Assembly: GCF_000003815.2 (NCBI RefSeq)
Contig: NC_049982.1
Span: forward strand, 18,130,246 to 18,194,245
Direction: 5' to 3'
From: Branchiostoma floridae
Taxonomy: Eukaryota; Chordata; Leptocardii; Amphioxiformes; Branchiostomatidae
DNA: 64,000 nt
Below, piece after piece: positions 25,442 to 63,194 of this stretch. The translations under genes were made by a program, and so were the position numbers. The notes under the pieces were generated by a model. The model saw only the letters and a program-made list of their open reading frames with translations, did not search any database and had not been told where the DNA came from. Each line of letters starts with the position of its first letter. Position 1 is the stretch's first letter.

Positions 25442-27615
25442 GGTCTTCATGCTCTTTTCCGTAAGGTGTAGGCTGCCTTTTTAAGTTGCCGTAATTCGTA
25501 GGGAAGCTATTCTATTCTACGTAATTCGTAGTGAGGATGGAAAATTTACCGTAAAGCGTAGCCAGTGCATTTCACGTAAGGCGTAATCAAACCTAAAATT
25601 TCCACGTAAAACGTAATCAACCCTAAAAACGTTCTGTAGATCGTAGTCTGGCCTCCCAATTTTCGTAAGTCGTAGCGTAGTCTACCAGCTAATTTTGCCC
25701 CTCAAAATACAGGAAATGGCGCTTCAGATGGACAAGATTTCAAAATTTCGCCAGACCTCCCTTGCGATGCCGTTCACCTTCAGCTTCGGCCATCGACATG
25801 TTGAAACTGTTTATGGGGGGCATTGTGCTCACAAACCTTTTTTGCTAATAGAAATGTCGTTGAATTTAGCTTAGTCTGACAGCCAAATTTTCCCATCAAA
25901 ATGCAGGAAATAGCGTTTTAGAGTCGAAAGATGTCAACATTTTCCTGTGCCTCCATTGGCCTTGCGACCCCTCGCACCTCCAGCGCTCGAAATGCTGACA
26001 ATGCGTTGGGTGGGGCAGGGCGGGGTTCCCTTAATAGACTTCTTGGCATTATGCTTTATATAATGCCCAGAAAAATTTTGCCCAGAAAAATTCAAGAAAT
26101 GGCGTTTCAGAGGGTCACGATTTCAAAATTTCCCCGGACCTCCCTTGCATATATAAAATGTTTATAACTTAGAGCCACTTGTGTAAATGATACTAGACTC
26201 AACATGTTGACTTATTCATATCTATAGATATTCATATACATGTATGTAGCCAATGCATTTGTATGCACTTGTCTGCTTGTATACTAGCATGTAGTATATG
26301 TAGTTGTAATAGATCTTAAGCTATCTTTTATTGTGCCAATAAAGATAATTATATATTCAATGTGTACAGCATCAAACTGCGCTACTTTATTGTTTATAGC
26401 ACTTAACAGCAGGCCTCACGTGGAAGTCTAATTAGAAGTGCGTGAATTCCCCAAGCTATCAGTATAGGAATTGTAACTACACATGTTATTTCGCAGTGAT
26501 GTTTGACCATGTTGCTGAGGCGCAGAAGGATGAGAGTGAGTCTATAGAGCTGGACCTGAGGAAGGGACAGGTGTACGGCTGGAGTAACTACATCACCGTG
26601 CTGACCGGCCCGAGTTACGGCAGCCGGGCAGACTGCGACAGCCAGGCCGTGGTCAGGGTGGACTTCTCGGGCCCGTACAAATCCGCACGCTTCGTCCTGC
26701 AGTACAACGATCAGCCCCGGCTGTGGACCTTCGACGTGTCCGACTCCCCTGCCGCGGACGGGTACGGAGGAGACCCGGGACTCACATCCAACATGGCGGA
26801 GACTCAGATCTTCAACAAGTAAGTTTGTAACCATGGCAGCCATTCCTCACAAAACTGAAACCTCTTGCTTCCCATCCAATTTCATGAATCACCTCATGTT
26901 AGTATTTCGTCGAAAAAAAAAGTTGAAATTGATGCATGAGAAAATATTTTAAAAATGTCTTGTTGCACATTCTTATATAAACAACTGTGTTTGGATGAGA
27001 TGAAATTTCCAGGAAATACTGTGCGCCACCTGGCGCTATGGCCGTTACGATGCCGGGAACACATGTGCACGTTTTGCGGTTGCACTTCGCAAGCACAAAT
27101 GTCTATCATCTAGCCTGTGTTGTCTTCTCATTTGCTTTTTTCCTTTATTTCAAGCAAACACATAACCTTGACGTACACAAAATTGATATTTAGATGTATT
27201 TTTTCATCTCTGCTCGGTTGTTCTGTGACATCACATCACTGAAATGTCTACTCCACCCTCCAGGCAAATGCGCGTGTACAGTAACAACCTGCCGGGCTAC
27301 ATGGATGCTACTATTGACGGGGACTTGTTGATTCGGATTGAAGATGACATCATCGACAGAAACTCCCGGCTGAGTCTGGAGATCAGTGATGAGCGGCTGG
27401 AGTGGAACCGGATCGGCTCGAAGAAGAAAGGTTACATCAACAGCCAGTTCCTGTACACCCTGAGCGGACAGAGACCGATGTACGGGGAGGTAGACTATTA
27501 CATTTATGCCGGATTCAACCGCGTGCCGGCGGGGACATTCCGGTCCGGATCCGGCCTGTGCAAGGCCTCCGTCATCCTCCTGAAAGCAAAAGGTGGGGAT
27601 CTTTATTTACAGTAG
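22109..27615 (+). CDS. Secreted protein of unrecognised family, 3 exons
   Basis: The exons join in frame (phases 1 and 2) into about 239 residues. The signal peptide is split across exons 1 and 2 (MADMTIVGFLLVIVG then VMFDHVAEA), with a likely cut after AEA. The mature part has an acidic start, then VYGWSNYITVLTGPSYG, a DCDSQAVVRVDF strand, FVLQYNDQPRLWTFDVSD and a GYGGDPGLTSNMAE loop, then in exon 3 MRVYSNNLPGYMDATIDGD. Alternating hydrophobic residues suggest a beta-rich fold. The mature chain has just two cysteines (one in each large exon), which could form a disulfide. I do not recognise a Pfam family and assign no function. The end is uncertain: reading through gives GGDLYLQ and TAG at 27613-27615, but AAAG|GTGGGG at 27592 could be a donor to an unseen exon. 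Confidence 0.85.
23692..23835. repeat. CA/CG alternating purine-pyrimidine tract
   Basis: Long run of ACACAC with interspersed CGCGCG blocks in intron 1 of the secreted-protein gene. Composition is Z-DNA-prone. Confidence 0.85.
25102..25133. repeat. Solo MITE end
   Basis: 'cataattccaccgg..cataacaccacct' resembles the terminal repeat of the 45867-46064 hairpin element, but no opposite end lies nearby. Confidence 0.45.
25391..25438. repeat. (AT)24 microsatellite
   Basis: Uninterrupted AT dinucleotides directly before the 30-bp-phased motif array. Confidence 0.95.
25460..25675 (+). repeat. Eight-copy CGTAANNCGTAR array, 30-bp period
   Basis: The 12-base motif starts at 25460, 25490, 25520, 25550, 25575, 25605, 25635 and 25664 (steps 30,30,30,25,30,30,29). 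Examples are CGTAATTCGTAG, CGTAAAGCGTAG, CGTAAGTCGTAG and the variant TGTAGATCGTAG. Sequence between the motifs is mostly not conserved, unlike a young minisatellite. Lies in intron 1 of the secreted-protein gene. Confidence 0.85.
25690..26160 (-). repeat. Tandem modules shared with the 49.3-50.8 kb transposon
   Basis: Three units carry 'a(g/a)gaaatggcgtttcagag...gatttcaaaattt...gacctccctt' (starts near 25711, 25905 and 26094; spacing 194 and 189). The reverse complement of the same module occurs inside the TIR element at 49291-50818, so this is probably a related, end-less copy. Confidence 0.7.
26497..26818 (+). CDS. Secreted-protein gene exon 2
   Basis: Acceptor TTTCGCAG|TG, donor AACAA|GTAAGT. 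322 nt, phase 1 in and phase 2 out. High G+C third positions against AT-rich flanks. Encodes VMFDHVAEAQK through SNMAETQIFNK. Confidence 0.92.
27264..27615 (+). CDS. Secreted-protein gene exon 3
   Basis: Acceptor CCCTCCAG|GCAAATG. Encodes QMRVYSNNLPGYM through FRSGSGLCKASVILLKAK. Ends either at TAG 27615 or by splicing at 27592 (AAAAG|GTGGGG). No downstream exon in the needed phase was recognised. Confidence 0.88.
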
Positions 27616-33600: not shown

Positions 33601-34250
33601 AATGATGTCCTTTTAATATCATTAGTGCAAACTTGAATAACGCAACTCTATATACGTATCTCGTTAGTCCAAATGACAATTGCGGTTTTATGATATCTAC
33701 AAATATTTCAAAGTGGTTTCAAAAAATGAAATGTCCTTAAAACAACTGAACTCCACTTTTGTCTTGACGCCTTGACTAATGCACCTTGAGGCGTTACTTA
33801 AATTGTTTATTTAGATGGTGTCAGGTGGGGTGGTTATCAGCTCATCTGCTGCATTCAGCATTTAACCACCTCTTAGGAAGAAATAACACACCGACACCGG
33901 CAGCCCGAGATTGCCAGGGGGCGTTGATAATTACAAAATGGTCGGCAGTGCCGCGGGTCCCCGGTGGGGGATTCGCCCATCCCCCCTCCAGTCGGAACGA
34001 GAGGGAAGCCGCAGAAGCAGGCAAGCCGTCACACCGCCGACTCATCAGACAACGCCTGTGCTGACCTTTTGTGTGCGAGACCTCTGGTTTTCAAACGAAA
34101 TGCAGGTGTTTTTGCACCAGGCCGAGCGTGAAATTTTCAGATTCCACGCATGCCTAGTGGAGTAGGCGAGCAGAAAGCCAAGCCAGCAGTCACGAGTACT
34201 GCAGGCTTTACGTGAGACCATAGACCATGCACGCCAGATTTCGCTGGAGA
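27616..34250. other. Intergenic, no gene recognised
   Basis: No exon-like frame with splice sites or domains. Contains a short tandem duplication (AGTTACTGGAGC... near 30221-30250) and a T-rich tract (31133-31158). May hold regulatory sequence for SCUBE, but nothing specific can be read. Confidence 0.4.
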
Positions 34251-34254
34251 ACAC

Positions 34255-34262
34255 ATAAAAAG
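34255..34262 (+). promoter_or_regulatory. TATA-like box of SCUBE
   Basis: ATAAAAAG, 49 bp before the ATG at 34304. A start site about 30 bp on would leave only a very short leader. Confidence 0.4.
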
Positions 34263-34303
34263 AGGAGGGTTCCCTAGTGCTGAGGCACCGCTACCCCATC
34301 GTC

Positions 34304-34373
34304 ATGAACTGTGTTTGTTTTTCTTTCCAACTATGTTTGTTTTCGCTGCTGCTGAGTACATGTCGCGCCGTAG
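34304..34373 (+). CDS. SCUBE: SCUBE exon 1 (signal peptide), probable
   Basis: [19 protein letters not shown] then CRAV plus one base, followed by a strong donor G|GTAAGC. Hydrophobic core with a plausible CRA|V cut. Phase 1 matches the EGF1 exon (G+AT = Asp, giving ..CRAVDVDEC). The 9-kb intron and lack of direct evidence leave some doubt. Confidence 0.65.
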
Positions 34374-43300: not shown

Positions 43301-46300
43301 CATTGTAGAAGTTGTCTTCTGGAATTACAACGTATAGTGATGTTTCTGTTGTTAGAATCCAAAGCAAAATCTAATAGAAACAACTACTATAACAGCACTT
43401 TTTAGAGACTACAGTTAAAAGTGTCATTTCTACATTGCAGATGTGGATGAGTGTATGGAGGGCACGCATGACTGCCATCCCAATGCCACCTGCAGTAATA
43501 CACCAAAATCATTCCGCTGCCAATGTAGACAGGGATACGTGGGCAATGGTAGACATTGTGAAGGTGAGTACTACATGTGTATATATCATTAGTGTCCATA
43601 CTACCTATGTTCGTCATGCCATACATGTATCATTTTGTGTATGTGGGATGTTTGATTTTTCAGTATCACTAGCCTCAGTCAGCCTTCATTTGTGCATTCC
43701 CTGTGAATTTCCATTGAGAAGACCTGCACTACATACTGACCTACATGTGTAGCTATTTAGGTACCTATCTTATCATAGGGGCAGTCAGATTCTCACTTTG
43801 CAGCGCATCAAGTCAAGTCTAATCAGGACTCCTATCTCGGGTTGTCAGGTATAATTTCTGGGTTATCACATAGGCTAGTTTATCTCTAAATACCAGTTGA
43901 TCTTCTTGTAAACAGTATGTAATAACTGCAGACTATCTTATCAGTAGTGTTTCCATTTGATATCCCCCTATTGTAGCCGTAGGTCTGAACTGGATGACAA
44001 TGTTGTACATGTACATTTATGTCATCCTTGTACTTAAAAAAACAGAAACATCTACCTTGTATATTTGGATCCAACAGTAGTTCTTATTGAAAGCAGCATT
44101 GAGAAAATTATCCCTTGTTTTCTTCTTCTTCTTCTTCTTCTTCTTCTTCTTCTTCAGAATAGTCTACTTGCATTGTAGGAGATCAAAAGTTGAGAACTTT
44201 TTTTTAATTTTTTTTATTCATTTTGGAGACAAATTATGATATAAATGCTAAGAGAGAAGGCAGGTATTAAGCTGTGGGGGTACATATGCCAGGGCGATAA
44301 CACAACCTCCTTGATGTCGTGTATCAATGTTTGAGCAATACAATTGAATCCCCTCACTTGTAACTGCCTTTCCACCCTTGATCTCCTGTTGGAAATCAGA
44401 TGTCCCCTAAACCAGTTATACATCAGTGGGAACAAAATCCTCTGTAATCCATGTGATCCAAACTACCCAGTGTAATGTTGCATGGCTCATGGTGAGAGGG
44501 AGTCCAGGTTAGCCGTTTGTTTGACCATTCCCCTCAAACTGCTTACACAGCAAGACACATTGCCACTCACTGATAGAAGATAATGTTTCAATTTTCTAAG
44601 ACACTTTAAACTACTATCATATACTGAAGTACTTTAATTATAAGTCCAATGCATGTGTCATATCATAGGAAGATACCCTCTTAATCCCAATAAATCTGTG
44701 CTGCCTTAGTGTGGAAAATCCCATCAAGCTTATTACTACACAGTAGCAGAAGAATGAGTTATAAGTTAACTCTTCTATTCTTTGGCAAGAAGTGTGACAA
44801 TATATAAAAAAATAGGTTGACCTGAGAGTTGGGGTACAGTATTTGAAAATGTTAAACTAAAAGACTTGGTAAAAACATTCTTTACTATTGAGTCTTGAAA
44901 AGGAGAGTGTCATGCAAGTGTTCTTTACCGTTTCAGGAGTCTGTTGCTATGAGAACATAGTGGTTTGTAATGCAAAAACTCCTATGGCCTCTTTTAATCT
45001 CTCTTTTATTTATCAGATCAGTATCGTTTCTCCCTTACAGTTCATCAGTTTGCAGATATTCCAGTAAATGACAGATAATTGTTCCATCCCCTCAGGTCTT
45101 GGCATGTACAAAATGTATGTTTACTTTACCAGGGGGCAAAAGCAATTACCTGTTGAATAGGTGTGGGAGTGCCTAAATGGAGGGTCAACTTAATGTGATA
45201 TTTCATGTGTGACCCTTCCACTGACAATCTGATGACAGATGTGTACTGACATTTGACTGTAGACACTCTATAATTGTTTAATCGATCTTGTATTGGTAAT
45301 ACACAAAATGTGTACAGTTTGGTAAGATTGAATTTTTTCAGGATGGATATGTTACTTGGGAGTATAAAAATTGGGTTGCATACAATAAAAACTTCCTATT
45401 GACTTGTAAAGAGCTCAGGAACATACCATATGTTTAGTGACACCTTGACTTGTGTATTGTCTACATTGTGTATCATCTGTATCTGTCATGTCATGAATGG
45501 TTCCATTGTACAGTCTGCCCAGGTGCAGGACATGTCCCGACCTGTTGGCCATCTGATGCTGTTGCCAAATGTTTGATCAAGTCTCCGAGAACAAAGCATG
45601 TTTCGTGTCCAGTCACCCTAACATAATGCTTGTCATGTCCTCTGGCAGATACAATGATACCGGAGACAGGATGGAAGAGTTGATTTGTGATTCAACCTGA
45701 CTACCATTAATATGCATTCTACATGCAGACATTCATAAATATATGCCTACAAGACTTCATAGCATGACTATTTAAAAGTCATTTTGAAAACCTTATAATG
45801 CACATTGACTTGCTGGTTAGAATATAAACAGCATTGTTGAAATTGACAAGGTGTAACATCGACTATCATAATTCCACCAGGTGTCATAATACCGCCACCT
45901 AAAAAACATAAGTATAGAGGTCTTCCCAAGATTGTCTTGAACACCGAATGTTAAATATCTTAAATGTAATACAATTCAGATATATAGTTTTGAAGACAAC
46001 TTGAGAAGGCCTCTATAACAACGTTTTTTGAGGTGGCGGCATAATGGCACCTGGTGGAATTATGCGAATGTATGTTATTACCGGCACGTGAAAACAAAAC
46101 ATTATGATACTTGTGTATTGTTGATAATCACATATAATGAAGTTGATGAAGGTTAGACATCCCAGTGATTATATATGCCAAAAAACAGTTACTCAAGCAA
46201 CTGGATATGATTTGGCCATTTCCAAATTATATCTAGTTGCTTGACTAACTACTTTTTGGCTATCACATTTGATAATTTTATTTTCCATAAAGGTTATGAT

Positions 46301-49300
46301 TATTTTTTCTTAGATGTATAAGTGTAAAGAAAGCGAGTATGAAGCATTTATTGTACTGTCAAGATAAGTACCCTTGTAACTTAGACAGCAGGCATTTTTT
46401 AAAACCTTCTTGTTTAACCAAACCATCTGGTGTATATAATTATGGGTATTTTGTGGGTTGAGTTGTCAGATCTGTCGCCAGTCAGTCTCTCTGCACAATG
46501 TTACACGACAAGGATAATCAGGAAAATCATAGTGAACATTATTGGAGGTTTGCCACATTGTCGCTGCCTAATCACCTTCAAAAGGACCTGGCAGGGGGCT
46601 AATCACACGTTTGTCCCAGATATGTCCAAATAGTGGGTTTTGGTTAGGAAATGATCCAAAAGTGTGTTGTGGTATGGTCTGTACTCTGTAATTGTCGGAT
46701 GAGTACAGAGTGTTGTAACAGTCTTGTAAGGAGCGCCTAGTGTGTGAAATTGGCAAGCGAATTGTTCTCAGACTGTTATAATAAATCAAAAATTCTAGAA
46801 ACAGTCTAGATTTATTAAGCTAATCTGCAAAGAAACATCTTGTTGAATTTCACACGGAATAATTTCTTATAACTGTGGACCATCATGATATTTGTTTACA
46901 GCTTAATAGAATGTATTTCAATTTTGTTTCATTCATCAAATATGGAAACTATGACATGTCATAGAATACATGCTTGATGTTGGTCTCAGAATGTTTGATG
47001 GCATGATCCATCTTTTTTTATCTAATGCAATTGTTTTTGTCCCATGAATTGCTATGTATGCACAGTTTTGCCCAGAAAATTCTGTACAACTTTGTTCAAC
47101 AGCTCCCCCTTTGACTATTATTGGTACTGCACAAAATTATTGCCCAAGGGATGCAAGAAAATGGGGTTGTTGATTTATACGAAATACCACAGACTGACAA
47201 CAGATATGTTTGTCCAGTAGACAATTCATTGTTTTTGATAGTGGTACGTTGGAAAGTGAATCCGTTACATGTGGGAAAGAGTAAAGTACCACTATCCATG
47301 GACTAGCCCCTTACAGTCATGATTGCACAAAGTTGTGTGGCCCAAGGGCTATTGAAATGGACATGGGCATTACCCTAGATGTATGTGCTATCTGAAGCAG
47401 GAAGGCCATTAACTTACTGCAACAACTTTTTGGCATTATCTCTGGTACTTTTGAAATCCACAAGCATCAATTTAAGCTCTACGTCATGCAGTTCTGTACA
47501 ATTGTATGCTGATATGTTTCAGATGAGGATGAGTGTGCAGTGAATAACGGGGGCTGTGTACACGAGTGCACCAACACACAAGGGAACTACCGCTGTGACT
47601 GCTACGATGGCTTCATGCTCCACGACGATGGACATAACTGTATCGGTCAGTAGGACATTTCATGACAAGATGTTCATCATGACATTGTGGTCTGTCATTA
47701 GGTCCAGTTTGCTACACAGAGTGCAGTGTCTGAGTTTTACTGTACCAATGGAGGGGCACAATGATAGTACTGATGAGTACTCTTCCTTTGCTTTTAAGTA
47801 TGGTCATATGCTTTAGGACTTTAAATCTAAGCAGACTGTACTCATCAGTTCCCAGTTTCAGGACCACCACATCTTGATCATGTTAAAGAACCTGCAACAC
47901 TTCTCAGAAAGAGTAGGGGTGCCCCTTAGTATATGGTGGCTCAGACCAATTAGTCCCTAATTAAATAATGTATTGATCAATTTTACCTCAGGTAATACCT
48001 CACAGTCAAACTAACTTCAATCTTTTTTTTTTAAGTCAGGGCATTCAGAGAGAAAAATATAAAGTTGTATGGATAAAGCTGTGCTAAGCCAAGATTGGTT
48101 GATGCTGGGTTCTTGAATCACAAAAGTGGGGGGAAAATCTGATAAGCCAAAAGTGAAATATTACATAGGCTCCCACACCCAAGATTGTCAGGCTTTTTTG
48201 TTCACTGCATATTGAGAGCTTTGCTTCCATTTGTGTAAAAACATGGCTGCCACTGGTTCATGCAAATAGAAGTAACAAATGTTGTTACAACTGGCAGGTA
48301 ATTTGACACTAGAAGTACAATGTCTGCACATAACAGGGTTTTGTGGAGAACCCAAGCAGGCCTTTTAGCTAACTCAATAGTCACCAAAGGAAGGCAAATG
48401 AGTCCCAGGCTCCCTGCCTCCTATTTTCCACAGTCTGCTGTTGTCAACACCTTTCAGCCTACCCTTTCCTCGAGCTTAGTGTGGCCCCCAGGAGGACTGG
48501 AGGGGAGGGTTATATTGCTGGAGAGGTCCCAAATTCTCACAGTTGTATGTTGGCTGCTTGCCGTTTAGAGGCAGATGTCTTGTCAATCATACTAGATGTT
48601 ATATAAGCACTTCTCAAGTATTCTTTTTCTCTAATCAATTCTTCTGTATGTAGACGTAATCAAGTGCAGCATTCCAGAATGAACAATGTCAAATTCCCTG
48701 CATTCTGGTGACGCAGGACAATACACATGTACAAGGTTTGTACGTCAGCCTTCACTTGCTGTATCGTCTCCGTCTTCAACGTCAAGACATTTCTCATCCA
48801 GAGCTTTTATGATAAATTATAGTACTTTATCTATGGGTTCTTTTCAGCTAGCTGTTTCCTACAAGCTATATGTCAGATTTTTCAATTGCCAGTGATAAAC
48901 ACTCAATACATTCATCAGTATATATGATATAATATGGGGAGATACCTGAATGTACTGTAGCACTAAAATTCATGATCTTATCAGTGTTAGCAAGGCCTCT
49001 TTTATGACATTGCCATTTCAAGGAATGGAAATAGCAAATCAAAAATGACCTTTACTTGATGACAAGAAACTATACTGGTTGTAAGTTCTGGTTACACATA
49101 AGGGAGGAGCTGTAAATATCAGTCTGACGCTTGCTAAGAAGTTCCATCACCACCTCTAATGCTGCTCTTTCCCAAGAATTCAGCATTTCCCTCAAGAAGT
49201 CTTTAATTGGCTGGAAAGTGAGGAGTGAGGAAGCCAAGATCTGGCATTCTTCCCTTCACCCAGGGCAACATCTTCACTAGGTGACACTTAGGGACCGTAC

Positions 49301-52300
49301 GGCGTTTAGTGAGGGGGGAGGGCCGGTCGCCAGAGGGTCGGGTCAAAAAAATTTTGCATGGCCCTCCCCCCAGGTAAAATTTTTTTTGCTAGGCCCTCCC
49401 CCCAAGACAAAATATTTTTGCTTGGCCCTCCCCCCTCCTATCAACTTTGAAAAAAATATTCAAGACGCCAATAAAACACTGCGCTCCCGCATTTGGAAAT
49501 GTGCTTTGCGTCATACTTTTTCATGATTTTCATCGAGAAGCAGATCTCTCACCCCTAGTAAAAAAAGGAAAACAGAATGGCTCAAAATATCTGCTAAATA
49601 GAGGGATAAATATCTGCTTTATAGAGGCATAAATATTTGCTTTATAGAAGCTATTTCATTGTTTTGATATTAAAACAACAGCTAAAAAACAGTTGTACCT
49701 GGATTTCTAGTAACGTTAGATTTGCGCCACGAAGCGGCGCGCGCCCCGCTCCCTAAATTTACGCTCGCGGGCCTGAGCGGCTTGACGGAAACTATTTTCA
49801 ATTTACATATATTTTGGACTTTTTCTTGGTTCTGTGGTGGTAATAACTTACGGTAAATCAGGGGAAAAAATGAAAACCAAAACGACAGCACGATTCGACT
49901 TCCAAAACTGTAGTGGGGAGGGGGGCGCCGACGCGTGACGCTGATTTTCCCACGGCGGGGTAAGCCTCTCTCTAGCCGCCGGCGGGCGTGAGACCGCAGA
50001 CTTGCAGGAGATCTTTTAGAAATGCCACGCTTTTTTTGCCACGATTTCCTGCATTGCTTTTTTATGGTAAAATTTGCTGGTTAGATGACATTTCTATTAA
50101 AAAAAAAAAAATACGAGGGTTTCAAGTTTTTGAGAACGACGTTCCGAACACCATGTTCGGCGCCAAAGGCACGAAGAATCGCAAGGTAGGTCCGGGAGAA
50201 TTTTGAAATCTTGACCCTCTTAAAAGCTATTTCCTTCAGTTTTGAGGAGATATTTTGCTGACAAACAAAGCTAACTTTAATAGCATTTCAATTTAGAAAT
50301 ACAAAATTAAATCCCCCCCAAACACATTATCACGATGTCGGTCATCAAAGGCGCGAGGCCGGTCACGTCAAAAGGGATCCAGGGAAATTTGCAAATATTT
50401 ACCCTCGAGCTCTGAAACGCCATTTCTTACATTTTGAGGGCAATAAGACAGGGGTAGATTTTGCTGGCAGACTAATCTAGAGTTTAATAACATTTCTGTG
50501 CGTGAAGAAGGTTTTCGAGGGCGTCATGCATAAGCCCCGCCCCCTCCCTTTCGCATTTTCACTGTATCCCGAGCGCCAACCTCGGGCGATCCCTTGCAGA
50601 GGTCCAGAAAAATTTTGAAATCTTGACCCTCTGAAACGCCGTTTCTTGGATTTTAAGGGACATATTTTGCTGGCAGACCAAGCTATTTTTTTTTGCTTGG
50701 CCCTCCCCCCAAGTAAAAAAAAATTTGCTAGGCCCTCCCCCTGGCAAAATATTTTTTTGCTTGGCCCTCCCCCCCCTGGCGACCGGCCCTCCCCCCTCGC
50801 TAAATGCCGTACGGTCCCTTAAACCTGTCATAAAGCAATTTTAAGTATTTGCAAAATTTGAGAGTTGTAGATATGATTAAATGCTGTATTTTTCAGCCAA
50901 CTATAGCTACATCAAGTTTTTCTGCCAATGGCTTAATCTTTAAGCATGATGTATGTGCCACTTGTAGCTTAATGGCTACCAGTGGGTAGCCCTGGCCAAT
51001 ACATCTAGGTTTAAAACGTACAAGTATCAAAGGCCTGGGGTTTTAGTATGACAGCTTGTGGACAGCTTGTTAGTTTTACTAACCCCTTGGACATCCCTAC
51101 TGAGATCATTAAGTTATTTTAACATAAGCAGTAATGCTAGATCTTGTCCTTGTTTTATGACACCACACTAATTCCACAGTAAGCTGCTTTGATGGTGGAG
51201 GTTGACCGGCCTTAATGCAGTATTAAGTGGCTCTATAAAACCAAGGCCAGCTTTATTACTGTGACCTTGTGCCATGTGAATTACACATTCCTGGTGCAAA
51301 GAGCCTTAAGTGTGACCTGATTCACTAAGGTGTGGAATTCACAGGTTCGATGTGAAATTTTAATTTGACTTAAGCTGAGGAGTGACATTGCCAAGCAGAC
51401 TCAGTAGTGGCTAATAGCAGGATTAAGTCACCCTAAGGAAATTTAGACATGGAAAAAATCCACAACACAGCAGACATTTGGTGGCTTCCTCAAATTTAAC
51501 TTATTAGGGTGAATTACTGTCATTGTGTCACACAAGTTAGTAGTTTTGTAGGAACTGATTGGACGTTGCTCTGTTCTCACATCCTCATTCAGTGGAGAGA
51601 ACTACTGAAGGCTGTTATTATCATCTGGATGAAGTCAGGTCTGCACTCATCTTACAGCATTTGGTCGTAAAGGTGGTATGTCACTGCACTTAATTGAGGC
51701 ACCGGTGCAGCACTGCAGGGTTCGTTCACTGTGGCACTGTTTTGTTATTTTTGCCGATTTTTTTTTATAATCTAAATATTGCATAATACGTAAAAGTATG
51801 TATTAGAAGACGACAATATGCACAGCACGTAAGAAAATTTGTTCTTCATATCTGAAATGTCATTGAATCATCTACAAACCCCGCAGTGCCACACCGGTGT
51901 CGCAAGTGCAGTGAGATACCACCTTAAATGTTATAACGTTATGTAGGTCAGTTCAGCGTTCTGGACACTGATACTCTTACAAATAGACTGCTACTTTGTT
52001 ACTTGTAGGTTTTTCGTATGAAAATCCTTGTTTTGCCTGTAGAACAATGATACCTGTCAGTACCTATTTATTATTGGCACTTCTAGAAGTTATTCTAGAG
52101 AAAAACCAATCCGATTTATGACTCTAAGAATCAAGTGTTGTAACCAAGCTCCAGAAACAATTAAAAATCTATTTTCAACCTGTTTTAATTTATCGTTTAA
52201 TGGGCATGAGGATGGAACTAGGTATGGTAAGGTAAGTAAGGATTTAACAAGACTCTGGTTTCTCAAAAAATAGCATGTGAACCCTTTAACTGGTCCCAGT

Positions 52301-55300
52301 CTAAACAGGGTCTCAGTGGATCATCTTCCCTGGCTCCCTTTCCTATGACCAGCAGTACCCACATACCCATGACAGCCTTTTTACATGCTTGGAATATCTC
52401 AGATGTTGCCTTCGATTAGAGGCTTAACTAAAAAGGTCCAGAATTGGGTGTTAATTTGTTTTCAGTGGTCTTTAACCGCCATTGTGTGCAGCCCTTTGCA
52501 GGTCTTGCTGCAGAGTAATTGATGAGGTGGAGAGTGAAATTATCAAGATAAACCTCAGTCTGAGCCCTTCAAGACACTTTGTTTACGGCGTTGGCAGGAG
52601 ATGTTATTCCTAAAAGTAGTCTGGACTAACCAAGCTTTCCCTGCTTATTGAGAATCTTCTTCATGCTTTGAAGATGAACGGAAAGTAATGTACAGTAACT
52701 CCAGAATCTTACTTGGACAAATATACCGGATTCAGTGCAGTCTTTGATCACCATGTGTTTATTTGACTTAAAAGATTATCCAGTAAAAAGGTAGGTCAAT
52801 TTCAGGAAGGAAAAAGTACTCGACTCAGATCAGGCCATGCCAATGTACTTTTATGGAAGTTGGATTTTTTTACAAGAAGAATGCTGGTTATTGTTGATGG
52901 TCAGGTGATTAATGATAGTCACTTTATCATATAGACAATGAAAATTCAATATAAGAACTAGAAACTAGTATTCTTATAACGCTAGTTCACCTTTATCCGT
53001 GGGGTGACCTTTATCCGTTGTCTTTTAAAACAGCACATTTAGGAGTATTAAATCTGTGGACAGTGGTTTCAAATATGCCATATTTTCAAAATGTTCCGAT
53101 TTGAAACCACCATCCGTTGACTTCATATCCCTAAATACATTTTTTCTTACAAACAACGAATATAGGTTACCCTCGGATAAAGGATAACCAGCGTTATAGA
53201 CATCAGACAAAGAATGCATTATTACTCATACTAAGCACTACGTGTATACTATACTTGTGACTTACTCCTGTCTCTGGTATAGGAACACTAGTCTAGTGAG
53301 TTAGACCAGATAAGCCTCATATGTCAGGTAACTATGTTCAGGCCTTGGGAAGTATTCTGAACATTTTAAGTGAAGTTTCAACATTTTTGAAGGAGAGAAC
53401 ACACTGAAGCTTTTTTCCTGGGAACATGTAATGTTGCCCAGTGGGAAATGTAGGTTATGTGTTTGTGATGAGAAACATTGCCTGATGAGAAAGCAAAATG
53501 TGCAAAGGCTGACCATTATTTTCTACTTGACACACTCAAAAAGTAGACACACATCAATTGACCTGCATTAATGAGTGAAATAGTTTTTTTTTGGTGGGGG
53601 CAAATTTGAGTCAAGTAAAAATGAAAAAAAAAATGACTTATCCACCCTGTTGCTTTACAAGTGCTTTATGTTGATATCTCCAAAAAAAATGCCTTATATT
53701 AATATAAAGCTGCATCATATTACACGGTGTTAAGGATGGTAAGACAAAGTTTGCACCAGCCCTGTACATTTTGTCCCCCCTTTCTTGTAATATTCTGTCT
53801 CCATCACTCTTTTCATTAAGTTACATTTAGCTTTTGCCTCTGCCCCATTTGAGCTAAATGTGAAATACTTAAGGTTAGGTGAATTAAAGCACAACACTCT
53901 TCTCAGGAGGCAGTCCTCTTCTCAGAACAGTTAATCTGAGAAATGCGTTCAGGTCTTGTTGACAGGGGATTGGGCTTCATCGATCATTTATATGTATGAG
54001 AGGCAGTTCACTTAGCCATTTAATCAAAAGCCGAGAACTGTGCTACAGTGAGAGCTTAACACTGTCACAACTGACTTATCACCATCCAGTTTTTGTCCCT
54101 TCTGGTGTAACTCAAAGTGTTTCCTACAATATCGTCAGCTTAAATGTTTGGCAAGAAGCAACACTGTTCAAAGCTATCAATATTCTGCTCACACACTCTA
54201 AGTTTTCTCCTGCAGTACCAGGCTCTTGACCTGTCCTACAGATAACATCCCAGCCAATCTGTCCTCACTTGTAGGGGAAATAAGCTCTGTCAGGGGCAGG
54301 AAAAATAAACATGCCATTATGCAGTGGTTTATTTTCACTTCAAGGAGAATTTGCCAACTTGACGTTTTGGAAACAGTAAGTAGAACAAGATGAGGGACGT
54401 GAGCTGGCACAAATCCAGTGTAGACAGGTCTGACGCTATGATGTGTACCCTTCATACATCAGGATGGCTGGTGTATGATGGGATGTCATTTGCTGTTGGC
54501 TTCCAACTGATGTCAAGGAAAATTATCTTAGGACAGTGTCATCCCCTGAAGGAAATTTTCAAACTGCCCCTCGGAATTTGTAGATGTGTATCAGAACGAG
54601 TGAGAGAATTGTATAAACAGTGGGAGGATAACAAAATGAATGATTCTCCTTCTGACACATGATTTCCTCCTGGTCACAAGTACATTGTACATTGCACTGT
54701 ATTACTTAAACTTAGTTAAAGCCAGTTGAAGCCTAGATTTAATAGTATACAAGTATGTATGCTGTTGTCATAACATTAAAACTGGAAGTATGGTTAAGAC
54801 CTAATTGTGAAATTTACTTGACTGTTAAGCCAATGATTGGGTAATTTGCATATCAAGGAAACTGATTTTTATTTGGGAGAAGTACGAACATGATTCATGT
54901 ACTGGAGAAGTACAATGTTCTGTATATTGTTTCCCTTTTTTCCCTCTCAGATGTTGATGAATGTGCTGTAAACCGTGGTGGTTGTCAGCAGATCTGTCTG
55001 AACAACATGGGGAGTTATGAGTGCCGCTGTAGTGCAGACTTCGTCTTGAGTGACAACGGCCACACCTGCATCAGTAACAAAGGTAGTGGTGAGCACACAT
55101 TCTGTGGTTTGGGTCCGGTTTAGATAAGTAAGCTAGATGGTTTTTGCTATGCAAGATTCATGCATTTATGTTTCTGAACCATGGTGGCTTATGATCTACG
55201 TTTGTCTGATTCAACAGAATTGCTACATTGTACATGTACATAAGAAAAATGCTGTCACAGTGATATGCAGATTATATCATCAAGATAGCATTTAGATGTA

Positions 55301-58300
55301 ACTGTAGTGATGGTGAAAAGTGTAAATTTTTGTCAAGTTGATGTTTAAAAAAAGAATATTTCTCAAGCTGTTTAAGAGTTGATTCATCTGGAGTAAAACA
55401 TGTATAAGGGGAAGATCTTGGAAGAAGAAACTTATTTACTTATGTACTTAAATATTTAAGCGAGGAAGTGGTAGTGCCATTTCCATGTGAGGAGGGTTCC
55501 AGGCCGGTGCTGTCAACAGGTGCTGATGTCAGTGTGTAACCTGACTCTGTGCAGTGAGAACATTCTTGGTAGGAGCTTCATCTGGTCGTTGACAAGGACT
55601 CTTCCAAACACAGCAAAGTTATATAAACCCTGCACTTTACCCTAGTAACCTTCTACCATGTGATATCAGTCAAGCCCATGTCAGGGATATACTGCCAGTT
55701 CCAAAATCACTTTGATATACCTCATTTTGATTTATGGTGACAAATATGAAAAGCTGTAGTGCAATATTTGTATATCAAGATGACACATTTAAAAAGCTGA
55801 GCAAAACATGATCAGTTAAATCCAATCATAGTTTTTCATACATTAGTTTCGATTTTGTGAGGCCCTACAGATAATATTGCACATGGAGGTACATGCCAGA
55901 CTTGTTCCTACAAAAGAATGTTTGTTTCTCCATTAATGGAATAAGTCTTCTGAGTGCTTGTGACAATGAAGTCAGGATGTTGTGATGTCATTCCAGGGAA
56001 CTGTAAGAAGCAGGAACATGGCTGTGCCCACATATGTCAGGAGACTAACAGGGGAACTATCTGCCAGTGCAGGCCTGGGTTTGAACTTGCTCCCAACAGG
56101 AAGGACTGTATAGGTACATTGTAAAATGTATTATGTATACACTGCACTGCAGTGACTGTTATAACTTATATACGGCTAGCATGAATACCAGAAAAATAAA
56201 ATTAGCCTTCTACATGTATAATATGATGATGTTGTCACATGTTTCTACTATTCACATGATGTTGCTGACTATTCTGTAGTAGGGAACATTCATTAGGCAG
56301 TTATTGTATTTATTGATGCTACACAGGAGTTCTTTCATAATCATAAGTCAATAACATTAAGCCATACCTTTAGTTTTGATTTAGTGTTACGTTTAGCATC
56401 TTTACTTAAGATTTGGTTATGTCATCACAAGTCTTCTTCCCTGCTGCAGTGACTTGTTCCCATGGTAACGGAGGCTGTCAGCACGAGTGCCAGGATACAG
56501 ACAACGGGCCTGTCTGCACCTGTCATCTCAACTATCTCCTGGCCTCCGATGGCAAGACTTGTATAGGTGAGTCTGGTAAGACACCATTCTTTATCTTATT
56601 CTCAGCAGACATTTAAGAGTTTGTAAAATACTACACTGATGGGTTTACATTAGCATGTGTATGTCATGAATTATATTGTTCAATGTACATTACATTGGAC
56701 AGTGATTTTTGCAGAAAAGGTCCATGTTGAAAATACCAACCTTTTGGCACATACATGTATCAACTTTTGATTCATGATCACCCCTTGAAGATTTCTGGTA
56801 TTGAAACTTACATTTGTCCCAGGACCCTGTATAGGGGAGTTCAAAACCTGTAACCACTGTTGTTTAAAAGAGCCATCTAGTGGTGAGAACCAGTACTGTA
56901 TGGGCTGAATTCTACTCGTATGCCAGCACTTCTTCATACATGGAACATTCCTGCTAATGTTTGAATGTCCAGAACATGCTGCAGACCAAATAGCTGGCAA
57001 AGAAAATGATCCTCAGAAAATAATGCATACCAGCATAAAGCACTGTCTTAGATAGGAATCCAACACCTCTGGTATGTCGCATGTGTCACCCTTCTCTGAT
57101 CTCCATATACCTGATAAAGTGGTGTAAGCAGGTCCTTAGTAACTAGAGGAATTCCAGATATCATGTCTAAACAAATCATGGCAAGTCAGTCAAGTACCAT
57201 ATAAGTGCAGTCCGTTAGTGACCGGGGTATCGTACATGTTGAAAATATGGAAAAGACCGAGTGAGTTTCGTTCGAGTTTTGTGCGCTTAGTTCTCCTTTC
57301 CCCAGGCAGGGATGTATGTTGTGCATCCATCTGATGTCCTGCACGTGGTATGTGTGTTTAACTCTGTTGAGGATTGACACAGACAAGGCTTGAAAGGCAA
57401 TATTGACACAGTGGCAGGCTGGCCCGCAGTGTTTGTTTCTCGGAGCTGTCCAACTGAGATGTAAGTCATTACAAATTCATTTTCCACCCGGGCGGAAAGG
57501 CAGCGGCACTTCAAAAGCCCCAGCCCAGGAGACGGAGTACATCCTCGGCAAACAGCGTGGTCACAACGGTGTGCTTCTCGTCCCGAATGGTGCAAGGCTT
57601 AAAATATTTCTACCTTAATACAGCGGGTTTTTGGTTACAAATTGGCAGGCGAGCCTGACAGTTTACGTAGGAGAGTGGGGCAGTGCTGGGCTGCTGCTGG
57701 TGCGTGCAGACCTGTGCCGGCAGCGGGCGGTGACGGCCGCCGTTTCCAGTGAACCTGACCTGCCCCCTGCAGACTCCCTGTACAATGCATCCTTTCTAGT
57801 CCCCGGGGGGTGCCCAGCTCAGCTGATTGGCAGTTGCACGTTGTCGATATGGGTTGAGCTTTACTCGTGTTGCACTGAGGCCTGAAGACATACTCTGCAG
57901 TGTTTGTGCTTCCTCCTAAGAACCCTTCAGGATTCAACAGGATTACCACTTCTCTTGTGATGGATACATTCAGAAGACTGGTGCTCCTGCCATGCCTTAT
58001 CTGCTTGTGTTTTTCCTGGACCAAAGCTAAAGGTACGTTCATCTGACTTCGCTCTCCTATAAGCTTGCTGCCCATCTGGACTGCAGGATATGTGTATCCT
58101 TTTCTGTTTACTTCTCTTGTCCTGCTTGCAAATGTGTCTGCAAACATTAGGGATGTCTTCTAAACTTCTTTCTTTGCCTCTTCTGACATTTTGGGGTTAG
58201 TTATTTCCAGTTGATGGTATGAAAGTATGCCATGAAAAGTTTAGCGGTGTTCCCCAAGTATTAAAAGATTGGTTAGAGTAACCAGCATTCTGTACTGTGT

Positions 58301-61300
58301 GGTACCATTTAGAGATTGGCTTAATATGTTTATCTAAGGGATTAAAGCCCTGAGAAAACAGTTTAAACAGTACTTTGGACAACTTAAATGTGTTAAGAAA
58401 ACTTCTTTCCCATCTGAAATTGCTGTGCTATCCAGTTGTTCAAAACCCTTTCTCCTTTTTGTCCTTTTTTTACTGTATACTATTTACTGTATATAGCTCA
58501 CAGAAAGTTAGCCTTGTGAACTTTTGGTCATTTTGATTCTCAAACAAAAATGGCAAGGTCTTTGCATCCCTTGAACAGCAAGCTTTCACAGTTTTTTGTA
58601 AAATATGTTTCATTTCCCAGTAATTTGCTAGCATAAAGTACTTACGTGCTAGACTGCTTTCCTGAACAGAAATATATGAACAAGGCTTCCTAATCATCTC
58701 TATTATCTTGTTAGTTCATTAAAATTTGAAGTCACCATACATTTGGAACAGTTGATTACACATGTGTTCAGAGGTCCCCAAATGACTCGTTCCCAATGAG
58801 GAATTCCACAAATAAAGATGCTACTTAAGACATCTATTTTAAGCATTGACCTTTTGATGACAGGGGAAGGCAATGAATTGCTTTCTTAGGCAAACTATGC
58901 CAGCACTCAGGAGTTCTTGATGAATAGAAAAGCTTCACAATGAAACCTTGAGAAAGGCTCGATTCTAGTAACCTTTGAATTCTTCATGCTAGGGAGAATA
59001 TGTGAAACCCAACCCCAATAGGCAGTTTATCGATAGAGTAACATAGGACGACACTGAAACTGAAGTTGAATGAGTTTTTCCATGCAGTAGTATTGTTTCT
59101 GTGACCATGCAAAGACATGAATGGCTTATTTGAAGAAGAAATGAATGTAGGTTACACATGTCCTGTTTTGTATTTGTCCTGTCAACTCTCTACTATTGAA
59201 TATTGAATTTTCACTAGAGATTTTGTTACAAGGGTAGGAAATAGACTATTGAACAACCCCATTTTTTGTCGCCAGCGAAACGGGTACCNNNNNNNNNNNN
59301 NNNNNNNNNNNNNNNNNNNNNNNNNNNNNNNNNNNNNNNNNNNNNNNNNNNNNNNNNNNNNNNNNNNNNNNNNNNNNNNNNNNNNNNNCTTCATGCTAGG
59401 GAGAATATGTGAAACCCAACCCCAATAGGCAGTTTATCGATAGAGTAACATAGGACGACACTGAAACTGAAGTTGAATGAGTTTTTCCATGCAGTAGTAT
59501 TGTTTCTGTGACCATGCAAAGACATGAATGGCTTATTTGAAGAAGAAATGAATGTAGGTTACACATGTCCTGTTTTGTATTTGTCCTGTCAACTCTCTAC
59601 TATTGAATATTGAATTTTCACTAGAGATTTTGTTACAAGGGTAGGAAATAGACTATTGAACAACCCCATTTTTTGTCGCCAGCGGAAACGTTCAGGACAT
59701 GATTATGTGTACCTTTAAGCCTGGGGACTTTATTTTGAGCCAGTTATGTCTGACCACATGAATGTCATGAGTTGTCAGGCACCAGTGTTCACAGAGGTTA
59801 GAGGAATGGGGGCAGTTGTCTAGCTCGATCATGGATATCATACTATAATGTTGTGTTCTTCTGGTATTGAGTTTTAGTTTTAGTCATAAAAAGGGTACTT
59901 TGTTCAATTTCCTCAGTGATGTCATTGACAACAAAGACAACATTAGACAAGCTTTGAGTACATATACAACTGAGAAGGTAGGGAGACATACATTATGTTT
60001 TTATTTTCAAGTTGTGTTACATCTTATAAATATTGTAGTGTGTAGCATAGACATCAAGGAGGATTAGTCCACAGGTGCATGTAGCATATCCATGTCCAGC
60101 CCAGTAATGTGGAGGGCTGTCAGTCCGACTGGTTCTACATGGTCCCGGTGTCTGGCCTACAAAAGGTAAGTGGTCATGGGAAGGCGAGGGCAACCAATCG
60201 TGTAACCCGATTCAATCAAAGCAGTCATCAGATCTGTGACTGAACAGTGCGCGCTCCACGCACCAATGCCGCCCCTTAACTTACATGTCCAAGTACTCCA
60301 CCCTCAGGAAGTCCGCCAGTGCTTCTGAAGTGGCAGATGGCTTTGTCCTGTTCAAATTGATACACAACCAAGTTTACTTTAAGCACATGTACAAAATGTA
60401 CCTCACTTCAGAACTGTTCAGCCAAGAGCTGGAAGGAGTGGGCATCCCTAGGTTAGCTGACAGAGGACAGGTTTTGCTGATCCTTTACAAGAAACGCTAG
60501 TTCACCATTATCCGAGGGTTGCCTTTATCCATTGTTTTTAAAACAAACAGGGTATCAAGGATATCAAGTCGACGGATGGTAGTTTCATTCTGCAATTTTT
60601 GAAATATTTTAAAAATATATTGCAGTTTGAAACCATCGTTCGTCAACTTGATATCCCTAAACACCCTGTTCTTGAATGCAACAGATATAGGTTACCCCAC
60701 CGATAAAGGTGAACTAACGTTACTTTGAAATTGTAATGGGTATATACAGTGTATGTACAGATGGCACAAACTTTGCAAGATATAGTTATATCATTCTGTG
60801 GTATATTAAAATTACCTGTTCTGAATAATTCCTATCTGATGATAATGCAGATGATTCCTTTTTGCTGTTGTTTTTGACGGAGAAAGGTTTGGAAAACAAA
60901 TTGTCTTCTGACTCAGAGCCATCCTCTAAACAGAAGAGCAGCTGTGTTCCTCTGACGTCTCCCAAAAATGACTTGCCATGCTTCTGGAGACTTCCCTTCA
61001 TTATACACATATTCAACTGCCTTATTCTTAATTTGCCAATATAGAAGGCTAATCAGGCAGTTAGAGAATGCAGCAACACTGTTCCAGTCACTTCAGGAAA
61101 ACTTCTTACATAGTGACTATTTTTAACTTTATCTCCAGACATGTTTTCCCACTATGGCCTGTCCAATCATTCCTGGTGTACCTGACCAGATCGCAGGATG
61201 TTCTTGTGCTTTGTGTTGACTGTGAAGTCAACTTGAAGTAATCTTTGTTTGCTTTAAGTTCCCATTTCCCCTCATTAGTTGTGGCCCAGGTCCATGATGT

Positions 61301-63194
61301 AGAGACACAGTGTCAGCCCCACTAAGTACATGTCATTTATTGCCTTATGCAATCAGCTCCTAACGCAGGATGGATAGAAGCCAGGTCTGTGAACTAGTCA
61401 GGCTGCCTGAGAGAAACTGCAGACCTTGTCTGCAGCCATGGCAATGCAAAGTACCTCTTCTGACATCATACATTTGTAGATAACTCAATATTTGGTCTGC
61501 AGAATTAACTGCTTCTTGAGTTGAAGCGCTATAGCCTGAAGACTACTCCATGAAACTATAGGTTTCCTCCTATAGTTGGGAGATTTTTGTCTCTCATGTC
61601 TGTTGTGCTACCTTTTTATTCATTAAGAAGATTCTAACAAGATTCTGCTTGGATGTTGACTTCGGCAAACTGCAACATGGCAAACAAGTTTATTTCTGCT
61701 TGTACACGTATAACAGTTTTCCCAGTCAAAGTTTGAAAACCATTTCAGTGTAGTTGTCGGAATGCTCTTTCCTCATCATTGAAGTAGAAGCAATATTGTT
61801 AGCATTAACATGTGTAGCCATGTCAGTGATTGTGAAATCAATGAGCGGGGCACACAAACCATTGGTATTAGTACTTGGTATACACACTCTAAAACAAATA
61901 TGGCATTTTTGTATTCAGTAAACTGAATGAATGAACAGTGATGAAGAGTAGATTGTTGCAGCTTTCATTGGATGTTTCTTCAGCTATGCACAGCCATTTC
62001 CTACAGGATACCTGTAGTATTTCAGCAGGACTGCCAAACCTTGTTCTAGCTGGACATGCCTTACCGACATAATCCAGAAACCTAATCTGAGTCAACTGTA
62101 ACACATCTGAGTCGCTCCTGTTTCTCTGTTTACAGAGAACTGCGAAGGCTCAACCCTGTGGTGGCATTATCTCTCCAAAGGGCACACCGTTTCACCAATA
62201 TCTAGCACACCCTGCATTTTTTGTTGACAGGCACATTTTTTCTGGAGCTCTTACAAAGTGAAATGTTTATCTTTATTCTTGGCCGAGGTTTTTGTAAAGA
62301 ATGATGGTATGAGGATTGTATTGGTTTAAGGAGTCGGTCTTGGCCAGGTCGAGGAAACTTTGAAGGACTTTCCACATCAGGTGCCTGACTTGTAGATGCG
62401 TTCTGAGACACCTGATAGGTCTAATAAGATTTTAACTGGACGTAATAACAGAGCAGCACTTCTTCTGATCTATCCTGCAGGCTCTGCTGGCATGCAGGGT
62501 TGTATATTTTATGAAATACCAGGAGCTCCACTGAGGATGACCCAGACAGGACCTTGAAGGCTTGATGTGTTGTCCCTAACAATGCTATGGAGCCATTGAA
62601 GGGAACAGTTGTTGCTATTATCATTCTTTACTCTGTCACCAAAACAAGTTTGTTGCCATACAATTTCACAGATGTTTTCTCAGTTTCAACTTTGTTGATG
62701 TTTTTCAGGATTTTTGCTCTTCAGGAAGACTCCCATGTTCTGATCAGGGATATAACATTACATTCACAATATGTTGTCACATCTTAAGGTTGTTAGTTTA
62801 GAACTACAGTAGTTTTGGTCATATACATAATTATATACAAAATGTACATCTGTTCTGTCATATATGTACCTATCGTTGATCATTTAAGAAAAGGTGCTGA
62901 ATAGATTTTAGTCATTGATGTATAATCTTTCTCACCTACATATCCCAAGCATTTTCATGTTGTGTTTTTTATAATTAGCAATCTTATTGATTTTTTTGAG
63001 TGAGGTTGTACTTAAATCAAGTTTCAGAAGAACTGGAGATAAAGATGGATTTTATGAATGACCTGCATGTTTTGCAGAGACGTGTGCAGTGAATAATGGG
63101 GGCTGTGACCGGCAGTGTAAAGATACGCAGAGCGGCGTACGCTGTAGCTGTCCTGACGGATTCACCTTGCAGCCAGATGGGAAGAAGTGTCTGG
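34304..63194 (+). CDS. SCUBE: SCUBE (signal peptide-CUB-EGF) gene, 5' part, runs off right edge
   Basis: Exons in order: signal peptide (34304-34373), then six EGF-like modules at 43441, 47523, 54951, 55997, 56450 and 63078, each its own phase 1-1 exon. Order and spacing match vertebrate SCUBE EGF1-EGF6. EGF1-3 are calcium-binding type (DVDEC/DEDEC starts) and carry the Asp/Asn hydroxylation pattern (for example [12 protein letters not shown]). EGF4 is the GC..ICQE..RG type, EGF5 begins [12 protein letters not shown], and EGF6 begins [14 protein letters not shown]1 has an N-glycosylation site (NAT). EGF7-9, the spacer, the cysteine-rich repeats and the CUB domain must lie beyond position 64000. 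Family knowledge: SCUBE proteins are secreted or cell-surface glycoproteins; vertebrate SCUBE2 promotes release of lipid-modified Hedgehog. Introns total over 25 kb and are loaded with MITEs. Confidence 0.95.
34374..43440. other. SCUBE intron 1, no further exon seen
   Basis: About 9 kb. The minus-strand frame at 41374-41697 has protein-like composition ([20 protein letters not shown]) and could be a mobile-element relic, but has no recognisable domain. A short GT tract lies at 43114-43130. Confidence 0.4.
43441..43563 (+). CDS. SCUBE: SCUBE exon 2: EGF1 (calcium-binding)
   Basis: Acceptor ACATTGCAG, donor GAAG|GTGAGT. Encodes [18 protein letters not shown] ending in [10 protein letters not shown]. 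Six cysteines, calcium-binding start and hydroxylation motif [12 protein letters not shown]. Confidence 0.95.
44120..44156. repeat. (CTT)n microsatellite
   Basis: About twelve CTT triplets in SCUBE intron 2. Confidence 0.95.
45867..46064. repeat. 198-bp hairpin MITE
   Basis: The ends are inverted copies: CATAATTCCACCAGGTG on the left and the same on the opposite strand at the right, continuing through CCGCCACCT.AAAAAAC (about 40 bp). A second, inner inverted pair (TATAGAGG.CTTC.CAAG) means almost the whole element folds back. Target duplication not resolved. Confidence 0.8.
47523..47645 (+). CDS. SCUBE: SCUBE exon 3: EGF2 (calcium-binding)
   Basis: Acceptor TGTTTCAG, donor ATCG|GTCAGT. Encodes [16 protein letters not shown] with hydroxylation motif [12 protein letters not shown] and the SCUBE-typical [13 protein letters not shown]. 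Confidence 0.95.
49291..50818. mobile_element. PIF/Harbinger-like non-autonomous DNA transposon
   Basis: Both ends start GGGACCGTACGGC and share a 43-bp inverted terminal repeat with two mismatches (49291-49333 and 50776-50818). It is flanked by TTA on each side (49288-49290, 50819-50821), the 3-bp duplication typical of PIF/Harbinger. Subterminal zones repeat a GGCCCTCCCCCC / poly-A/T motif several times. No transposase ORF, so mobility would need a helper. Inside are modules also found at 25.7-26.2 kb, and three copies of an ATATCTGCTTTATAGAGGC-like 23-mer near 49587-49652. Confidence 0.85.
51670..51925. repeat. 256-bp hairpin MITE
   Basis: Left end AAGGTGGTATGTCACTGCAC and right end, on the opposite strand, AAGGTGGTATCTCACTGCAC, extending with gaps through CACCGGTG and GCACTGC.GGGTT. 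No ORF. TA-rich flanks, with the target duplication unresolved. Confidence 0.75.
52975..53198. repeat. Hairpin MITE, family A copy 1
   Basis: Left end TATAACGCTAGTTCACC and right end (opposite strand) TATAACGCTGGTTATCC, followed on both sides by TTTATCCG. The interior also folds back (TTTGAAACCACC.TCCGTTGACTT). Same family as 60493-60721. Confidence 0.8.
54951..55088 (+). CDS. SCUBE: SCUBE exon 4: EGF3 (calcium-binding), two possible donors
   Basis: Acceptor CCCTCTCAG. Encodes [16 protein letters not shown], motif [12 protein letters not shown] and [14 protein letters not shown]. Two phase-1 donors lie 6 bp apart: AAAG|GTAGTG (ends 55082) and AGTG|GTGAGC (ends 55088, chosen as the better donor and closer to vertebrate linker length). 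Confidence 0.93.
55997..56113 (+). CDS. SCUBE: SCUBE exon 5: EGF4
   Basis: Acceptor CATTCCAG, donor ATAG|GTACAT. Encodes [19 protein letters not shown] and [15 protein letters not shown], matching the fourth SCUBE EGF including the [11 protein letters not shown] core. Lacks the calcium-binding start. Confidence 0.93.
56450..56566 (+). CDS. SCUBE: SCUBE exon 6: EGF5
   Basis: Acceptor CTGCTGCAG, donor ATAG|GTGAGT. Encodes [20 protein letters not shown] and ends ASDGKTCI, matching SCUBE EGF5 ([11 protein letters not shown] in vertebrates). Confidence 0.94.
57470..57959 (+). promoter_or_regulatory. CpG-richer tract before the internal signal-like exon
   Basis: Unlike the AT-rich intron around it, this stretch is GC-rich with many CG pairs (for example 57480-57550 and 57700-57750). 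It directly precedes the hydrophobic exon. No TATA box. The 170-codon minus-strand ORF across it is an effect of composition. Candidate internal promoter. Confidence 0.4.
57931..58032 (+). CDS. SCUBE: Candidate alternative SCUBE exon with signal-like hydrophobic segment
   Basis: From ATG 57960: [20 protein letters not shown] then TKAK plus one base and donor AAAG|GTACGT. An arginine pair, hydrophobic core and small polar end resemble a signal peptide. Exit phase 1 fits the EGF6 exon (..TKAKETCAVNN). An acceptor CCCTTCAG at 57930 also makes 57931-58032 a symmetric 102-nt cassette with an open phase-1 frame. Either an internal first exon (secreted form starting at EGF6) or a cassette placing a hydrophobic segment between EGF5 and EGF6. 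Could also be chance. Confidence 0.45.
58982..59277. repeat. 296-bp duplicate flanking gap (left copy)
   Basis: Identical to 59389-59684, offset 407 bp. Diverges into GAAACGGGTACC just before the Ns. Almost surely an unmerged contig overlap. Confidence 0.9.
59289..59388. other. Assembly gap, 100 N
   Basis: Exactly 100 N, the usual placeholder for a gap of unknown size. Confidence 0.99.
59389..59684. repeat. 296-bp duplicate flanking gap (right copy)
   Basis: Begins at the first base after the Ns and repeats 58982-59277 exactly. Confidence 0.9.
60060..60175 (-). pseudogene. Possible ankyrin-repeat fragment
   Basis: The minus strand reads [18 protein letters not shown], then [12 protein letters not shown], resembling the G-TALH core of an ankyrin repeat. 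A TAG stands in frame just before it (or is the AG of an acceptor). Too short and isolated for certainty. The plus-strand frame at 60285-60500 nearby is also smooth but has no recognised domain. Confidence 0.3.
60493..60721. repeat. Hairpin MITE, family A copy 2
   Basis: Left end AACGCTAGTTCACC and right end (opposite strand) AACGTTAGTTCACCTTTATC. The interior is inverted around TTTGAAACCATC.TTCGTCAACTTGATATCC. Same family as 52975-53198. The TAG in its left end closes the ORF that begins at 60285. Confidence 0.8.
60722..63077. other. SCUBE intron before EGF6, no certain exon
   Basis: In vertebrates short spacer exons sit between EGF5 and EGF6. A phase-1 open stretch after TAATGCAG (about 60851-61044, [13 protein letters not shown].. 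then a Ser/Lys-rich run) was considered, but it has no matching donor that I trust. Confidence 0.35.
63078..63194 (+). CDS. SCUBE: SCUBE exon: EGF6
   Basis: Acceptor TTTTGCAG, donor CTGG|GTAAAT. Encodes [17 protein letters not shown] and [17 protein letters not shown], nearly the vertebrate SCUBE EGF6. Last exon in the window. Confidence 0.95.

Follow-up and report, generated by a model that had tools for sequence, protein, structure and literature searches.

Does the SCUBE-like gene of this amphioxus locus possess a second start, hidden in the intron between its fifth and sixth EGF exons? The window, by which we mean the whole 64-kb stretch of DNA analysed, carries in that intron a CpG cluster and, downstream of it, an open frame with a signal-like sequence and a donor whose phase matches EGF6. 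We suggest that the interval 57213-58032 probably comprises an internal promoter and an alternative first exon of the gene, from which a secreted SCUBE protein beginning at EGF6 would be made; the proposal is drawn from sequence.

A SCUBE-like gene and its presumed normal start

We take the gene to be close to vertebrate SCUBE in sequence. Its six recognizable EGF exons (Table 1) are each a multiple of three in length and were taken as phase 1-1, and Pfam assigns to the six joined domains five stretches of FXa_inhibition, four of cEGF and three of EGF_CA; a PDB search with EGF1-6 returned 17 sequences at E ≤ 1e-10, thrombomodulin being the best and none of them named SCUBE. The layout, in which a signal-peptide exon precedes EGF exons that each encode one domain, is that described for mouse Scube3, where exon 1 encodes the signal peptide and exons 2-10 the EGF domains (PMC3558425). 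SCUBE proteins are described as having nine EGF repeats, of which 1-3 and 7-9 belong to the calcium-binding kind (PMC10214685); only EGF1-6 lie within the window, and the rest of the protein would fall beyond its end.

The normal first exon is presumably 34304-34373, judging from its sequence; joined to EGF1, it yields a signal score of 13.1. A lax scan of 34-43.4 kb found no other phase-1 signal-peptide exon there. In the intron between EGF5 and EGF6, a gap of 100 N (59289-59388) separates two copies, each about 302 bp long and 99.7% identical to the other (58982-59282 and 59389-59690); it is probably an unclosed contig overlap, the intron likely being about 400 bp shorter than assembled. The same intron contains a plus-strand frame at 60351-60500, ending in ILYKKR and a stop, which resembles a protein C terminus and has no Pfam match.

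Table 1. Positions of the features discussed, numbered from the first letter of the window
Feature	Position	Strand	Remarks
GC-rich stretch before presumed normal first exon	33801-34300	.	GC 0.54, CpG o/e 0.74
Presumed normal signal-peptide exon	34304-34373	+	23 residues; top scan match; in phase into EGF1
EGF1 exon	43441-43563	+	123 nt
EGF2 exon	47523-47645	+	123 nt
CpG cluster	49226-50850		maximum 29 CpG/300 bp
CpG cluster	51626-52050		maximum 11 CpG/300 bp
EGF3 exon	54951-55082	+	132 nt; 3' end uncertain: donor 0.6, stronger GT (4.1) 6 nt downstream
EGF4 exon	55997-56113	+	117 nt
EGF5 exon	56450-56566	+	117 nt; donor 6.9
CpG cluster	57151-58000		maximum 19 CpG/300 bp
CpG cluster, putative internal promoter	57213-57742	.	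29 CpG in 530 bp vs 5.6 expected (background: remainder of 42-64 kb minus the 49-51 kb repeat; edges picked post hoc)
5' extension of exon if weak acceptor used	57931-57959	+	open frame; acceptor -0.7; 102-nt exon to 58032
Coding part of putative alternative first exon	57960-58032	+	24-residue signal peptide plus one base; signal score 10.8
Phase-1 donor gtacgt	58033-58038	+	score 5.1, top 0.4% of 4143 GT sites
CpG cluster	60026-60425		maximum 10 CpG/300 bp
EGF6 exon, in-phase splice partner	63078-63194	+	117 nt; acceptor 4.4, donor 1.0

A signal-peptide exon between EGF5 and EGF6

The initial annotation had described an ATG exon with a signal-like segment and a phase-1 donor suited to EGF6, and both parts of that description are borne out. 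The frame from the ATG at 57960, which has G at -3 and at +4, runs for 24 residues and stops one base into the 25th codon, at 58032, directly before the donor; joined to the phase-1 acceptor of EGF6, it continues without a break, and in the joined short form EGF6 matches Pfam FXa_inhibition with E 7.3e-14. The leader has a hydrophobic core of about 14 residues (by eye), and its best cleavage site falls after residue 19, between S and W, with lower scores after residues 21 (6.7) and 23 (5.9). ATG, signal peptide and a donor in phase with the downstream exon are thus all present, as in an alternative first exon. As a possible sign of an antisense gene, a stop-to-stop frame of 174 codons on the minus strand covers 57635-58159.

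How readily would such an exon arise by chance? Both strands of the 64 kb were scanned for an ATG with a signal score of at least 3.5 and a phase-1 donor of at least 4, with a von Heijne matrix for eukaryotic signal peptides and matrices of splice-site frequencies. There were three matches on the plus strand and five on the minus strand, led by two plus-strand exons, 34304 (13.2) and 57960 (10.8); the next scored 7.7 on the minus strand and 6.1 on the plus strand. Dinucleotide shuffles of the plus strand, which understate the variety of real DNA, gave 0.66 matches apiece at these lax thresholds and in none of 400 cases a phase-1 candidate with a signal score of at least 10.8, even with a donor as low as 4. 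In the real DNA, for which the control is one 64 kb window, three ATGs out of the 2744 of the two strands reach a signal score of at least 10.8 when no donor is required: 34304 and 57960, each with a phase-1 donor, and 12164, with none. Phase-1-type donors of at least 5.1 preceded by G number 23 in 128,000 base-strands, and the odds that a signal-like frame meets one in phase by chance over a distance of about 14 codons are, by hand estimate, roughly 0.25%. On the shuffles and these base rates from a single 64 kb window, base composition was rejected as the source of the 57960 exon. An origin as a copy of the region of the 34304 exon was likewise rejected, the exon and its upstream sequence sharing matches of only 10 and 13 bases with it.

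When 43561-63100 was scanned with a lax donor, the only candidates were 57960 and, in the same intron, a weaker one at 58090-58195 (signal 7.4, donor 1.4). For phases 0 and 2, the best signal-like exon of the window scores 10.5 and lies at 14039 with a phase-0 donor; it is perhaps the first exon of another gene, or chance, and so such patterns arise elsewhere too, real or by chance. Two exon-like plus-strand frames at 26436-26822 and 27229-27615 perhaps belong to other genes; neither they nor the 14039 exon have a Pfam match.

The CpG cluster and competing readings of the interval

The CpG-richer tract that had been noted in an otherwise AT-rich intron is real: 57401-57800 has a GC content of 0.55 and a CpG o/e of 0.69, against 0.10 in the upstream flank (56567-57100, GC 0.39) and 0.29 downstream (58033-63077). 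The CpG excess of 57213-57742 has a Poisson tail of 3e-12, with edges picked after viewing the data. Segments of 300 bp with at least 10 CpG make up 81 of 852 between 42 and 64 kb and fall into the four clusters of Table 1. Per kilobase, CpG o/e ranges from 0.41 to 1.06 over 1-42 kb and from 0.12 to 0.45 thereafter, the exceptions being 49-51 kb (0.82 and 0.77) and 57 kb (0.56). Because the first 42 kb are CpG-rich, the segment 57501-57900 is only 145th of 1273 by CpG count; by GC it is the 1st, and the segment at 33901 (GC 0.5675, tied with two others) is next below it. The 57 kb cluster and the stretch before the presumed normal first exon are close in GC and CpG content, a likeness that counts mainly for GC, since the whole area of 34304 is CpG-rich. 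CpGs become scarce from about 42 kb onward, which is 1.4 kb 5' of EGF1; the presumed first exon lies at 34.3 kb, and most of intron 1 is not depleted.

Methylated CpGs decay by mutation (PMC8857923), and in amphioxus nearly all 5mC is described as lying in gene bodies (PMC6292497). An island unmethylated in the germline and directly before a signal-peptide exon would be the expected trace of an internal promoter; an enhancer could look alike, and we call the cluster a putative promoter. A transposable element was rejected as its source: 57101-58040 has no second copy in the 64-kb window, 56700-58400 contains no inverted repeats of at least 14, and the TG+CA o/e of the tract (1.29; 1.23 at 33801-34300) is unlike that of the 49-51 kb repeat (0.93); copies may still exist outside the window. 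That repeat, at 49226-50850 inside the gene, is a CpG-rich element with repeated ends and related pieces at 25.7-26.1 kb. No known RNA family or tRNA was detected in the window at the thresholds used.

Three other accounts of the interval deserve consideration. The cluster might be an unmethylated intronic enhancer or other regulatory element, next to which the ATG frame and donor stand by coincidence. Demethylated regulatory elements within methylated gene bodies are reported in amphioxus (PMC6292497), and no transcription start motif was established at the 57 kb cluster; the signal peptide, the donor and its phase would nevertheless go unexplained, when none of 400 shuffles reproduced them and when, of 2744 ATGs, the three that look most like signal-peptide starts include two with a phase-1 donor, and we regard this account as unlikely. 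Far less probable is a truncating or terminal exon inside the island, with splicing of EGF5 to 57306 to give a short EGF1-5 protein, either alone or together with an internal start in a split gene. The acceptor at 57306 scores 9.7, 2nd of 3891 plus-strand AG sites, a donor of 4.1 at 57460 would complete a 155-nt exon (57306-57460), EGF5 so joined gains GRDVCCASI and then a stop, and an AATAAA lies at 58811. However, similar scores occur at other plus-strand AG sites that are tied to no exon (e.g., 6989 and 44158), the phases of EGF5 and EGF6 still match, and the EGF6 acceptor is ordinary. The segment 57306-57460 would either end the reading frame shortly downstream of EGF5 or belong to a 5' UTR.

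The initial annotation had also offered a second use of the signal-like exon, in which some transcripts would include 57931-58032 as an internal exon between EGF5 and EGF6, adding 34 residues whose hydrophobic stretch would serve as a membrane anchor. The symmetric frame stood up to inspection: it is 102 nt long, phase 1-1, open, and unbroken once joined. Its acceptor is weak: the score of -0.7 is below those of all six EGF acceptors (0.1 to 9.3) and is reached by 17.7% of 3891 AG sites. Ahead of the ATG, the frame is open for 81 nucleotides, which contain six AG sites, of which three are in phase and 57931 is the best, and by hand estimate about 0.3 equally good in-phase acceptors would be expected there by chance. 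A hydrophobic core as short as this one is more typical of signal peptides than of anchors, and the CpG cluster is left unexplained, so that the anchor itself is poorly supported and its insertion, in our judgement, highly improbable. The short secreted SCUBE lacking EGF1-5, which the initial annotation had put forward, appears to fit the sequence best; the presumed normal leader exon was recovered by the same blind scan, and the discrete CpG cluster lies just upstream in a CpG-depleted gene body.

A predicted short SCUBE and its possible counterparts

In the internal-promoter reading, transcription would begin in the CpG cluster or just 3' of it. Ten ATGs lie within 57236-57849, so a transcript begun at the 5' edge of the cluster would have to have its leader spliced; the easiest start would be after about 57850, or else upstream with a leader spliced from the donor at 57460 (4.1) to an acceptor at 57773 (3.3). 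Translation would then begin at the ATG at 57960, the first exon would be spliced from 58032 to 63078, and the 24-residue leader would act as a cleavable signal peptide removed in the ER. The product would be a secreted SCUBE without EGF1-5 that keeps EGF6-9, the spacer, the cysteine-rich repeats and CUB; we infer the transcription, splicing and secretion of this form, and everything beyond EGF6, from the genomic letters. It would drop the cbEGF1-3 block and, by inference, retain cbEGF7-9, which are reported to suffice for homophilic contact of SCUBE1 (PMC10214685), together with the C-terminal part.

More tentatively, and with considerable doubt, we raise the possibility that the SCUBE gene of this lineage is a two-promoter gene, with a long form that includes cbEGF1-3 and a short form that starts at EGF6 with its own leader. 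If so, the contacts of the first EGF block could be present or absent while the part serving Hedgehog release is retained, and if the arrangement were common to chordates, it would amount to an old switch between long and short SCUBE. It would also offer a concrete and testable case in which CpG content reveals an internal promoter within the gene body of an invertebrate.

Beta-neurexin has its own leader exon. The arrangement predicted here would be of a known kind, similar to that of the alpha- and beta-neurexins, in which a single gene with two promoters yields a long and a short modular extracellular protein (PMC12665717). Neurexins, however, are synaptic membrane proteins, whereas the present gene is SCUBE-like, its product presumably secreted and its second promoter a prediction. 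Among SCUBE genes, mouse Scube3-004 is likewise a transcript shortened at the N terminus; its first exon corresponds to exon 3 of Scube3-001, and it is thus without the signal peptide of exon 1 (PMC3558425). The available text of that paper describes no leader exon of its own for Scube3-004, whereas the form predicted here would have a new leader and be cut after EGF5. None of the literature matches listed describes a SCUBE protein that begins at EGF6, their coverage leaving aside most subscription papers and genome annotation records.

SCUBE proteins are described as aiding Hedgehog release and binding growth factors (PMC4873810, PMC10214685), and a natural short form would part the N-terminal EGF block from the spacer and CUB, as a native counterpart to the engineered truncations with which SCUBE function has been mapped. 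One such truncation, Mini-Scube2, is reported to remain active in Shh release; unlike the form proposed here, which would be natural and retain EGF6 onward, it is a laboratory construct without any EGF domain (PMC4873810). In B. belcheri, a gene labelled SCUBE1 is reported to rise by log2 12.05 after poly(I:C) (PMC5752451).
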